A DNA stretch of 64,000 nt, taken from assembly GCF_006007965.1 (NCBI RefSeq), contig NZ_CP040748.1, forward strand, positions 1,364,001 to 1,428,000. The letters are read 5' to 3'. Each line of letters opens with the position of its first letter. The first letter of the stretch is position 1. The position numbers were made by a program, and so were the translations under genes. The notes below the pieces were generated by a model, which was not told where the DNA came from, searched no databases, and saw nothing but the letters and a program-made list of their open reading frames with translations. Below are positions 3,758 through 12,178 of the stretch, piece by piece. The DNA is from Nocardioides jishulii (lineage in GTDB: Bacteria; Actinomycetota; Actinomycetes; Propionibacteriales; Nocardioidaceae).

Positions 3758-8297
<4,540 letters not shown>

Positions 8298-9913: not shown

Positions 9914-11362
9914 GTGCGTAGAGCAAAGATCGTCTGCACCCTTGGCCCGGCTGTCGACAGCCCTGAGAAGATCGCGGAGCTCCTCGAGGCGGGGATGAAC
10001 GTCGCCCGCCTGAACATGAGCCACGGCGACCATGCCGAACACGCGCGGAGATACGCGATGGTCCGGGAGGTGAGCGAGCGGACCGGTCGTGCGATCGGGA
10101 TCTTCGCCGACCTCCAGGGGCCGAAGATCCGCCTGGGCGCCTTCCGTGAGGGCTCGGCCGTCCTGATCCCGGGACAGGCGTGGACCATCACCACCCGCGA
10201 CGTCGAGGGGGATGCCGACGAGTGCGGCACGACGTACCAGGGGCTGCCCGGTGACGTGCACCCCGGCGACCCGATCCTCATCGACGACGGCAAGGTCCGA
10301 CTCGAGGTGGTCTCCGTCGACGGTCAGGACGTGCGGACCAAGGTGATCGTGGGAGGCCCCGTCTCGAACCACAAGGGGATCAACCTTCCCGGCGTCGCGG
10401 TCTCCGTGCCGGCCCTGTCCGACAAGGACACCGACGACCTGCGGTGGGCGCTGCACCAGGGCGTCGACTTCATCGCCCTCAGCTTCGTGCGCCATGCCGA
10501 GGACGCCGACGACGTGCGGGCGATCATGGCCGAGGAGGGCATCACCGTCCCGGTCATCGCCAAGATCGAGAAGCCCCAGGCGATCGACAACCGCGAGGCG
10601 ATCATCGACGCGTTCGACGGACTGATGGTGGCGCGCGGCGACCTGGGCGTGGAGTGCCCCCTCGAGCAGGTCCCCCTGCTGCAGAAGACCCTGATCGATC
10701 TGGCCCGCCGTCACGCCAAGCCGGTGATCGTCGCCACCCAGATGCTCGAGTCGATGATCAACGCCCCGGCGCCGACCCGCGCCGAGACCTCCGACGTCGC
10801 CAACGCCGTGCTCGACGGCGCCGACGCCGTGATGCTCTCCGGTGAGACGAGCGTGGGGCGCCACCCGATCGCCACCGTCCGCACGATGGCGCGCATCGTC
10901 GAGAACACCGAGGACCACGGCCTGGCGCGCATGGCGGCGGTCGACTGGCAGCCGCGCACCAAGGGCGGCGTCATCTCCAAGGCGGCCGCCGAGGTGGCCG
11001 GCCGGATGGACGCCAAGTTCATGGTCGCCTTCACCCAGAGCGGTGACTCGGCCCGACGCCTGGCCCGCTACCGGGGCGCCATCCCGCTGCTGGCCTTCAG
11101 CCCCCTGGCCGAAACCGTGCGCCAGCTCTCGCTGAGCTGGGGCGTGGAGCCGCTCCAGACCGCTGACGTGGGCAGCACCGACGAGATGGTGCGCCAGGTC
11201 GACGAGGTGCTGCTGGCCTCCGGCCGGGTGCAGGAGGGGGACTTCATCGTCATCACCGCCGGCACGCCGCCGGGCATCCCCGGCTCCACCAACGCCCTGC
11301 GCGTCCACCGCATGGGAGACGCCATCAAGGGAGTGGCGCCGGCCTACCGGACCGAGGGCTGA
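9914..11362 (+). CDS. pyk: Pyruvate kinase
   Basis: Glycolytic enzyme converting phosphoenolpyruvate and ADP to pyruvate and ATP. The 482-aa length is normal. The N-terminus RRAKIVCTLGPA, the NMSHG segment and the active-site signature around IAKIEKPQAIDN (catalytic Lys in the KIEK motif) are all present. The MVARGDLGVE loop and the C-terminal allosteric domain follow. The GTG start sits six bases after a TAGACT box with no ribosome-binding site. A strong bidirectional hairpin separates the gene from the downstream tRNA on the opposite strand. Confidence 0.97.
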   Translation: MRRAKIVCTLGPAVDSPEKIAELLEAGMNVARLNMSHGDHAEHARRYAMVREVSERTGRAIGIFADLQGPKIRLGAFREGSAVLIPGQAWTITTRDVEGDADECGTTYQGLPGDVHPGDPILIDDGKVRLEVVSVDGQDVRTKVIVGGPVSNHKGINLPGVAVSVPALSDKDTDDLRWALHQGVDFIALSFVRHAEDADDVRAIMAEEGITVPVIAKIEKPQAIDNREAIIDAFDGLMVARGDLGVECPLEQVPLLQKTLIDLARRHAKPVIVATQMLESMINAPAPTRAETSDVANAVLDGADAVMLSGETSVGRHPIATVRTMARIVENTEDHGLARMAAVDWQPRTKGGVISKAAAEVAGRMDAKFMVAFTQSGDSARRLARYRGAIPLLAFSPLAETVRQLSLSWGVEPLQTADVGSTDEMVRQVDEVLLASGRVQEGDFIVITAGTPPGIPGSTNALRVHRMGDAIKGVAPAYRTEG

Positions 11363-11385
11363 CCCACTGACTGACCCACCGCGTG

Positions 11386-11422
11386 ACGAAGGGCGCTCGA
11401 CCACTGGTCGAGCGCCCTTCGT
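11386..11422. terminator. Bidirectional terminator between pyk and tRNA-Leu
   Basis: Near-perfect inverted repeat of about 16-18 bp (ACGAAGGGCGCTCGAC and its complement) with a tiny loop. It lies between two converging genes and can serve both strands. Confidence 0.8.
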
Positions 11423-11428
11423 GGTGCG

Positions 11429-11502
11429 TGCCCCGGGTGGGATTCGAACCCACACTGGACGGTGTTTGAGACCGCTTCCTCTACCGGTTGGGATACCGGG
11501 GC
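11429..11502 (-). tRNA. tRNA-Leu (anticodon CAA), short variable loop
   Basis: 74-nt cloverleaf on the minus strand. The acceptor stem GCCCCGG pairs with CCGGGGC over seven base pairs and the discriminator is A73. The anticodon arm GCGGT-CTCAAAC-ACCGT gives anticodon CAA (reads UUG). The T arm is GTGGG-TTCGAAT-CCCAC. The D loop AACCGGTAGA matches the leucine type, and A15 with U48 can form a Levitt pair. The variable region is only five bases (CCAGT), whereas bacterial tRNA-Leu normally has a long class II arm. CCA is not encoded. Isotype is by anticodon and D loop; the odd shape is discussed in the findings. Confidence 0.85.
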
Positions 11503-11563
11503 CAGCTCACCGCGACACAACTTACTGCAGACCCGTGGCGTCCACGCGCGCCGGGGGAGGGGA

Positions 11564-11569
11564 TAACCT
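11564..11569 (+). promoter_or_regulatory. -10 box for leaderless pdtaR transcript
   Basis: TAACCT, then six bases, then the GTG start of the response regulator. No Shine-Dalgarno sequence is present. Confidence 0.55.
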
Positions 11570-11575
11570 CGGTAC

Positions 11576-12178
11576 GTGACTGCCGCCGCCCTCCCTGCTC
11601 CCACCGTCGTGATCGCCGAGGACGAAGCCCTCATCCGCATGGACCTGGCCGAGATGCTGGCCGAGGAGGGTTACGACGTGGTCGGGCAGGCCGCCGACGG
11701 GCAACGAGCCATCGAGCTCGCTGAGGAGCTGCGTCCGGACCTGGTCATCCTCGACGTCAAGATGCCCGTCCTGGACGGCATCGCGGCCGCTGAGCGCATC
11801 GCCGCCCAGCGGATCTGCCCGGTGGTGATCCTCACCGCGTTCAGCCAGCGAGAGCTGGTCGAGCGTGCCCGGGACGCCGGCGCCATGGCCTACCTGCTCA
11901 AGCCCTTCAGCAAGACCGACCTCGCGCCCACCATCGAGATGGCCGTCGCGCGGTTCGCCGAGGTCCGGGCCCTGGAGTCGGAGGTCGCCGACCTCGCCGA
12001 ACGGCTCGAGACGCGCAAGACGATGGACCGTGCCAAGGGTCTTCTCCAGAACGAGCTGGGCCTGTCGGAGGTCGACGCCTTCCGCTGGATCCAGAAGACC
12101 GCGATGGACCTGCGCCTGTCGATGCGACAGGTCGCAGCGGGCGTCATCGAGCACGGTCCCGGGATCGCCCAAGGCTGA
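11576..12178 (+). CDS. pdtaR: ANTAR-domain response regulator (PdtaR-like)
   Basis: Two-component regulator of 200 aa. A receiver domain occupies residues 9-125, with acidic pocket EDE near 15-17, phospho-acceptor Asp60 in LVILDVKMP, Thr in ILTAF and Lys in LLKPF. A short coiled coil then leads to an ANTAR RNA-binding domain (about 135-190, with AKGLLQNELGLSEVDAFRWI). ANTAR proteins bind dual-hairpin RNAs and prevent transcription termination. In mycobacteria PdtaR is the partner of the sensor kinase PdtaS. No kinase gene lies nearby. The position after pyk and before a liv operon matches my recollection of other actinobacteria. Confidence 0.9.
   Translation: MTAAALPAPTVVIAEDEALIRMDLAEMLAEEGYDVVGQAADGQRAIELAEELRPDLVILDVKMPVLDGIAAAERIAAQRICPVVILTAFSQRELVERARDAGAMAYLLKPFSKTDLAPTIEMAVARFAEVRALESEVADLAERLETRKTMDRAKGLLQNELGLSEVDAFRWIQKTAMDLRLSMRQVAAGVIEHGPGIAQG

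Follow-up and report, generated by a model that had tools for sequence, protein, structure and literature searches.

The tRNA-Leu(CAA) encoded in the window, by which we mean the whole 64,000-nucleotide stretch of Nocardioides jishulii DNA analysed here, lacks the long variable arm of a class II tRNA. We put at roughly nine in ten the probability that it functions as a leucine tRNA, with no other CAA one found in its genome, and that the cell's one leucyl-tRNA synthetase (LeuRS), of ordinary bacterial type, charges it with leucine; its charging, structure and expression we infer rather than compute. The arm-less form of UUR-reading leucine tRNA, which has a rewired core, is widespread in Actinobacteria; phages and a small number of records from other bacteria have it too. 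It is very probably a real, functional tRNA variant that has been little noticed.

The original prediction was of a tRNA-Leu(CAA) with a five-base variable loop in place of the long arm, and ARAGORN, Rfam and inspection of the sequence all agree with it (Table 1). ARAGORN calls tRNA-Leu(caa) on the minus strand at 11428-11502, counting one extra 3′ base, as the sole tRNA gene of the window, whilst Rfam family RF00005 matches 11429-11502 over its full length (1-71) with 55.5 bits and an E-value of 7.4e-11. The acceptor stem has 7 bp and the T stem 5 bp, as opposed to the 8/4 or 9/3 bp of allo-tRNAs, and the variable region of 5 nt falls short of the 10 nt or more of a class II arm. The anticodon is one for a leucine codon, and CCA is not encoded in the gene. 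A73 and a leucine-type D loop (CAACCGGTAGA / CAACCGGUAGA) had also been claimed and can both be read in the sequence; the last base of the variable loop, U48, would form the A15-U48 pair. Single-sequence folding recovered three stems, those of the acceptor, anticodon and T arms, with a z of −2.11; of 200 shuffled sequences, 5 folded equally well. The D stem is absent from that fold and is seen instead through covariation over relatives.

Table 1. Features of the short-armed leucine tRNA gene and its surroundings, in window coordinates.
Feature	Position	Strand	Details and basis
tRNA-Leu(CAA), short variable loop	11429..11502	(-)	74 nt; sequence inspection, ARAGORN, Rfam
Anticodon CAA, UUG reader	11466..11468	(-)	Inspection and ARAGORN
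Variable loop CCAGU (gene CCAGT), five nt, positions 44-48	11454..11458	(-)	Between anticodon stem and T stem
D arm: 3-bp stem UCC/GGA, C13, A14, A15, G18 G19, then U A G A	11477..11493	(-)	Inspection; stem covariation and C13 / C12-G23 signature
pyk, pyruvate kinase, conserved convergent neighbour	9914..11362	(+)	NCBIfam pyruvate kinase; synteny
Response regulator of PdtaR type, conserved divergent neighbour	11576..12178	(+)	Receiver domain; synteny
18-bp perfect inverted repeat, arms 11386-11403 and 11405-11422	11386..11422	(.)	Between convergent pyk and tRNA genes; inspection

The gene was also expected to lie by pyk, and pyk does end, convergently with it, at 11362. On the other side, a receiver domain was matched in the response regulator and, among the families shown, none scored above its cut-off; ANTAR/PdtaR is the name we use for it. 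The inverted repeat, which lies 6 bases past the 3′ end of the tRNA and has no T run, is perhaps a transcription stop shared by pyk and the tRNA gene, although promoter and terminator scans of 11340-11600 found nothing, the repeat included. Weak Rfam matches to mir-2830 (which overlaps the repeat), Plastid-ycf2, mascRNA-menRNA and IRES_HIF1 were all far below their gathering scores and were rejected as chance.

The source genome is a single contig of 3,536,142 bases with completeness 100 and gave 51 tRNA matches, 50 of which were taken as stretches and typed by ARAGORN, the 51st being the window tRNA. Its leucine tRNAs with anticodons UAG, GAG and CAG are all class II; those with UAA and CAA are both short-armed, and no long-armed CAA or UAA tRNA was found among the 51. 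The second, canonical class II CAA tRNA that could have spoken against the original prediction was therefore looked for in this set and not found. Three further genomes were treated in the same spirit, one of the same genus (G149) and two from two other families (G192 and G139), with every tRNA match of span 79 or more being typed. The tRNAs of class II length (9, 6 and 8 in G149, G192 and G139, respectively) are Ser, Tyr and Leu CUN, plus one long Gln in G149, with no Leu UUR among them, and the two UUR tRNAs taken from each genome are all short-armed. Thus no long-arm UUR tRNA was found in any of the four genomes searched, which represent three families of the class. As a separate observation, the tRNA-Gln(TTG) at 652911-652989 of the source genome is unusually long (81 nt by ARAGORN) and has the lowest RF00005 score of the genome; a similar one is found in G149.

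How such a tRNA is charged had been called not obvious. Among 8 matched stretches of the source genome, one LeuRS match lies above the family cut-off, and it aligns to residue 876 of 878 of the best solved LeuRS, 1h3n of Thermus. Within its own genome the nearest relatives of the window tRNA are Leu(UAA) at 0.86, class I Arg(UCU) at 0.65 and Glu at 0.61. When 130 short UUR tRNAs were compared over 60 positions, a comparison that placed 44 of the 50 other tRNAs of the source genome, mean similarity was 0.786 to Leu(UAA), 0.676 to Arg(UCU), 0.671 to Asn and only 0.546 to two Leu CUN tRNAs. Judged by likeness of sequence, then, the tRNA appears to have no firm tie to another amino acid, nor does it seem to point to class II leucine. 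The elements by which E. coli LeuRS is known to recognise its substrate (A73, A14, A15-U48, G18G19 and A20a, as listed in the available part of PMC9976931) are all present in the window tRNA; in relatives found by pattern, G19, Y20, A20a, G20b and A21 are fixed by the search pattern itself. We suggest that LeuRS would recognise A73 together with these D-loop and core elements, and that the long arm would not be needed. The same part of PMC9976931 reports that the long arm is not crucial for E. coli LeuRS, variants without it staying active, and that human mitochondrial tRNALeu(UUR) is charged without one, so that charging looks less mysterious than was first thought. A 2024 review (PMC11295145, in the part available) has LeuRS using A73 and the long variable stem-loop; the short-arm family argues against this as a general rule for LeuRS.

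Could UUG have been recoded in these bacteria, with the tRNA carrying some other amino acid? The structure is odd for leucine, and the nearest non-UUR tRNAs by similarity are those for Arg and for Glu or Asn. However, in the pyk and pdtaR genes of all short-arm CAA loci together, the columns holding UUR codons are nearly as rich in leucine as those holding CUG/CUC codons, with a mean leucine share of 0.663 (152 sites) against 0.697 (1643 sites). Much of this comes from seven loci grouping with Planktophila, picked by their position in the regulator tree, which supply 109 of the UUR sites with a leucine share of 0.667 against 0.690 for CUN; G192, whose CAA tRNA is identical to that of Planktophila locus L096, is one of the genomes in which no long-arm UUR tRNA was seen. 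The window's own genus and order offer only 16 UUR sites, with a share of 0.519 against 0.676 for CUG/CUC as judged by the other loci, which leans towards recoding; in 9 of these 16 columns leucine still ranks first. UUR is therefore leucine over the short-arm CAA loci taken together, which are mostly of other lineages, and the evidence is weak for the window's genus alone. Searches of solved structures with three window proteins, also aimed at the UUG question, gave one protein without a match, and the other two were left unused, the column test being better. Given A73, the named LeuRS elements and one ordinary LeuRS, we regard recoding as barely credible. Very unlikely, too, is a decayed or spare copy, or a tRNA kept for a side job only, such as donating leucine outside translation. 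We found no direct support for this, and the most that can be said for it is that demand is low, since mechanically chosen ORFs of the window, 17036 codons in all, contain 59 UUG (two of them at ORF starts) and 2 UUA. Against it stand the want of any other CAA tRNA in the genome, stems that are compensated rather than decayed, and a gene place conserved over the class.

That gene place and the form itself extend well beyond Nocardioides. A UUR pattern free of arm length matched at least 135 of 148 genomes of the class; split by arm length, it gave a short-arm UUR tRNA in at least 106 and a long-arm one in at least 57, these counts being lower bounds since variants are missed. Two short-arm matches occur in at least 31 class genomes, and in one (G077) both are CAA. 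None of the 8 sampled genomes of the window's genus matched the long-arm pattern, and three genomes of another genus of the same family have a long-arm CAA beside a short UAA. Beyond the class, a phylum sample (n = 90) gave mostly long-armed rows, and several families there had short ones. When each species was scanned through a single genome, at least 118 short-arm loci came back, of which, among those listed, 106 belong to Actinomycetota, 11 to other phyla (two each in Bacillota and Cyanobacteriota, and one each in Planctomycetota, Rokuibacteriota, Pseudomonadota, Chloroflexota, Myxococcota, Acidobacteriota and Armatimonadota) and one is unplaced; by their titles, 11 of the 12 not placed in Actinomycetota are metagenome bins, for which misbinning is possible. 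The first 80 loci contain 81 pattern matches, every one typed by ARAGORN as a CAA or UAA leucine tRNA; in each of the remaining 38 loci it identified one UUR tRNA.

By genus, short CAA tRNAs are found in all six Streptomyces loci and short UAA tRNAs in the loci of Nocardia, Rhodococcus, Gordonia and Corynebacterium, whilst the Mycobacterium loci mostly have a short UAA, one having CAA, and those of Bifidobacterium are of either kind. The suggestion of a similar tRNA by pyk in Streptomyces was borne out, three loci (L093, L102 and L156) having a short-arm CAA with both regulator and pyk nearby. The Streptomyces bldA product, a UAA tRNA, is class II, and a long UAA tRNA of genome G075 (L226) resembles it. 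The original suggestion that the gene may be a conserved oddity holds in that it is shared across the class; it is not, however, an exception beside canonical tRNAs, as both UUR isoacceptors are short and the state is common. Three records deserve separate mention. A Saccharofermentans bin of the Clostridia (L145, about 4480-4792) has a CAA tRNA of 77 nt and a UAA tRNA of 76 nt by ARAGORN, both short and close together; with their other core, of G12-C23 type in the CAA one, they are possibly an independent loss of the arm. A Chloroflexaceae bin (L132, 70-365) has both UUR leucine tRNAs short-armed, about 200 bases apart. Lastly, in the pair L082 and L153, the record titled Sphaerisporangium cinnabarinum falls beside Cellulosimicrobium in the regulator tree, with an identical tRNA sequence, and so may be mislabelled or contaminated.

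Phages carry the form as well. Mycobacterium phage Bonray (MK112533.1; L264, 601-674) encodes a short-arm Leu(GAG) with the C12-G23 and C13 core that is 83.8% identical to the window tRNA, so that the compact fold is not confined to UUR readers. The Bonray gene after it is a Leu(CAA), also short (75 nt), with a different D arm. Short-arm Leu(UAA) tRNAs are found in a Streptomyces phage and in a Rhodococcus phage, the latter also carrying a long-arm Leu(CAA). Within the portions of the literature available, we found no account of the short-arm tRNALeu as a feature of Actinobacteria, and older papers on Streptomyces leucine tRNA genes may mention it. A passing pointer is given by PMC11541572, where, in the part available, some tRNAs of M. 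tuberculosis, tRNALeu-2, 3 and 5 especially, are said to have a long variable loop.

Short and long forms differ in more than the arm. We compared 138 distinct short-arm and 31 distinct long-arm sequences, 190 of 191 tRNAs entering the feature counts; the second UUR tRNA of L145 was excluded as it is without GYAGA. The long-arm set was chosen for retrieval, and its size is no measure of frequency. Positions 9, 12, 13 and 23 were free in the search pattern, whereas G19-A21, T33, A35-A36, purine 37 and part of the T loop were fixed and are uninformative. At position 13, C is found in all 138 short-arm sequences and G in 28 of the 31 long-arm ones; pair 12-23 is C-G in 137 of 138 against G-C in 30 of 31; and position 9 is A in 128 of 138 against G in 30 of 31. 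The sole short-arm sequence with the long-type 12-23 pair is the CAA match of L145, which was taken for an unrelated short-loop tRNA and kept in the counts. Among the 138, pair 10-25 takes all four Watson-Crick types (G-C 97, U-A 27, C-G 10, A-U 3, with A-C 1), pair 11-24 is C-G in 116, U-A in 20 and G-C in 2, and the tertiary pair 15-48 is A-U in 133, G-C in 4 and A-C in 1; A73 is present in 137. Loss of the arm thus goes with a rewired core of C12-G23, C13 and usually A9, and with a 5-nt loop that usually ends in GU. The window tRNA has the 5-nt loop of class I, and in all 138 sequences C13 could pair with a G placed before a bulged A. Our preferred model, probable on the sequences at hand, has C13 bonded to the G after A21 in GYAGAG, a class-I-like 13-22 pair with one bulged A that would let the short loop pack on the D stem; C13 is invariant, and the G was fixed by the search pattern.

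The place of the gene was counted over 110 loci with one tRNA per locus (L044-L073 and L078-L157), L158-L195 (38 loci) being left out. Within 2.5 kb of the 40 short-arm CAA loci there is a PdtaR-like regulator in 36, pyk in 31 and either in 37, whilst neither lies within 2.5 kb of any of the 70 short-arm UAA loci. The regulator is also within 2.5 kb in 16 of 21 long-arm CAA loci (L196-L215 and L234), namely 14 of the 15 that belong to the class and 2 of the 6 from elsewhere. In a tree of the regulator from 59 loci (43 short and 16 long), arm state changes 9 times against 14.3 in shuffles, and at least 3 changes are forced by well-supported branches; this is a quick gene tree in which two long branches meet. 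The source genome groups in it with loci of named Nocardioides and Nocardioidaceae. As the same gene place holds either arm state, and given the changes over the tree, loss of the arm or replacement of the gene has happened there on more than one occasion.

Which of these happened is harder to decide. The short form may be a separate class-I-like lineage that took on leucine identity and replaced long-arm genes in place, by conversion or by transfer, phages included, with function unchanged; we hold this only tentatively, at somewhat less than even odds. It would account for core changes that arrive as one package in scattered lineages, and for actinophages that carry the short form, once with the anticodon GAG. 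The scan loci in other phyla, with the unplaced one, speak for it too, but nearly all are the metagenome bins discussed above. Over the 60 positions, the mean similarity of short UUR tRNAs to long ones, 0.634, is no higher than that to the class I tRNAs Arg(UCU) and Asn. However, the variable loop ends in GU in 126 of 144 short and 28 of 31 long forms, against none of the 37 distinct non-Leu/Ser/Tyr tRNAs of the genome that were read, and the pyk/pdtaR place is common to long-arm CAA genes. The CAA and UAA tRNAs share the UCC/GGA D stem in the source genome and in G149, as conversion would give, but their D stems differ in G139 and G192; conversion between them is therefore possible and not general. 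Neither whole-tRNA similarity in the source genome nor the 60-position comparison separated a class I from a class II origin. Pairwise identity with cheap gaps was uninformative, the closest long UUR tRNA and the closest unrelated one both scoring about 0.9, and was dropped; from that comparison only the counts of the final two bases of the variable loop were kept.

Set against known systems, the tRNA shares much with the canonical bacterial class II tRNALeu: A73, A14, A15-U48, the leucine D loop, the 3-bp D stem, a variable region ending in GU and the pyk/pdtaR gene place. It differs in having no long arm and, as a form, in having C12-G23, C13 and usually A9 for G12-C23, G13 and G9. Human mitochondrial tRNALeu(UUR) is likewise a leucine tRNA for UUR codons with no long arm, and its identity is essentially A73 and A14; it is organellar, and its anticodon branch is partly unfolded in the transcript (PMC9976931, in the part available). 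In contrast, the window tRNA is G+C-rich and well paired, has a fixed core signature and exists beside class II Leu CUN tRNAs. A further parallel is the tRNALeu(TAG) of a mycobacterial tRNA cluster, where a leucine anticodon is again combined with a short variable loop, and again in an actinobacterium; what is available of PMC6582537 takes that cluster as horizontally acquired, beside a normal isoacceptor, whereas the window tRNA is the only copy and sits in a conserved chromosomal place. A primate tRNA with seven differences from a tRNAMet also combines the CAA anticodon with the absence of a long arm, but its CAA form is restricted to human, chimp and gorilla and exists alongside a normal Leu(CAA).

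In reviews, tRNALeu is characterised by its long variable arm (PMC7609411 and PMC11295145, in the parts available). Genomes in which no long-arm UUR tRNA is found, such as the four searched here, are a natural test of what LeuRS reads, and relatives whose arms differ at a single conserved locus are also on offer. The short arm could moreover explain isotype conflicts in automatic annotation. Lastly, we put forward as a conjecture, possible rather than probable, that tRNALeu has two interchangeable folds, and that the compact class-I-like one (C12-G23, C13 and a short loop ending in GU), accepted by LeuRS, repeatedly replaces the long-arm fold in place, spreads between CAA and UAA and by phages, and is now the sole reader of UUR in several groups of Actinobacteria. 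If this is true, arm state would be an evolvable switch, one that alters which tRNA-binding enzymes and toxins act on UUR decoding.
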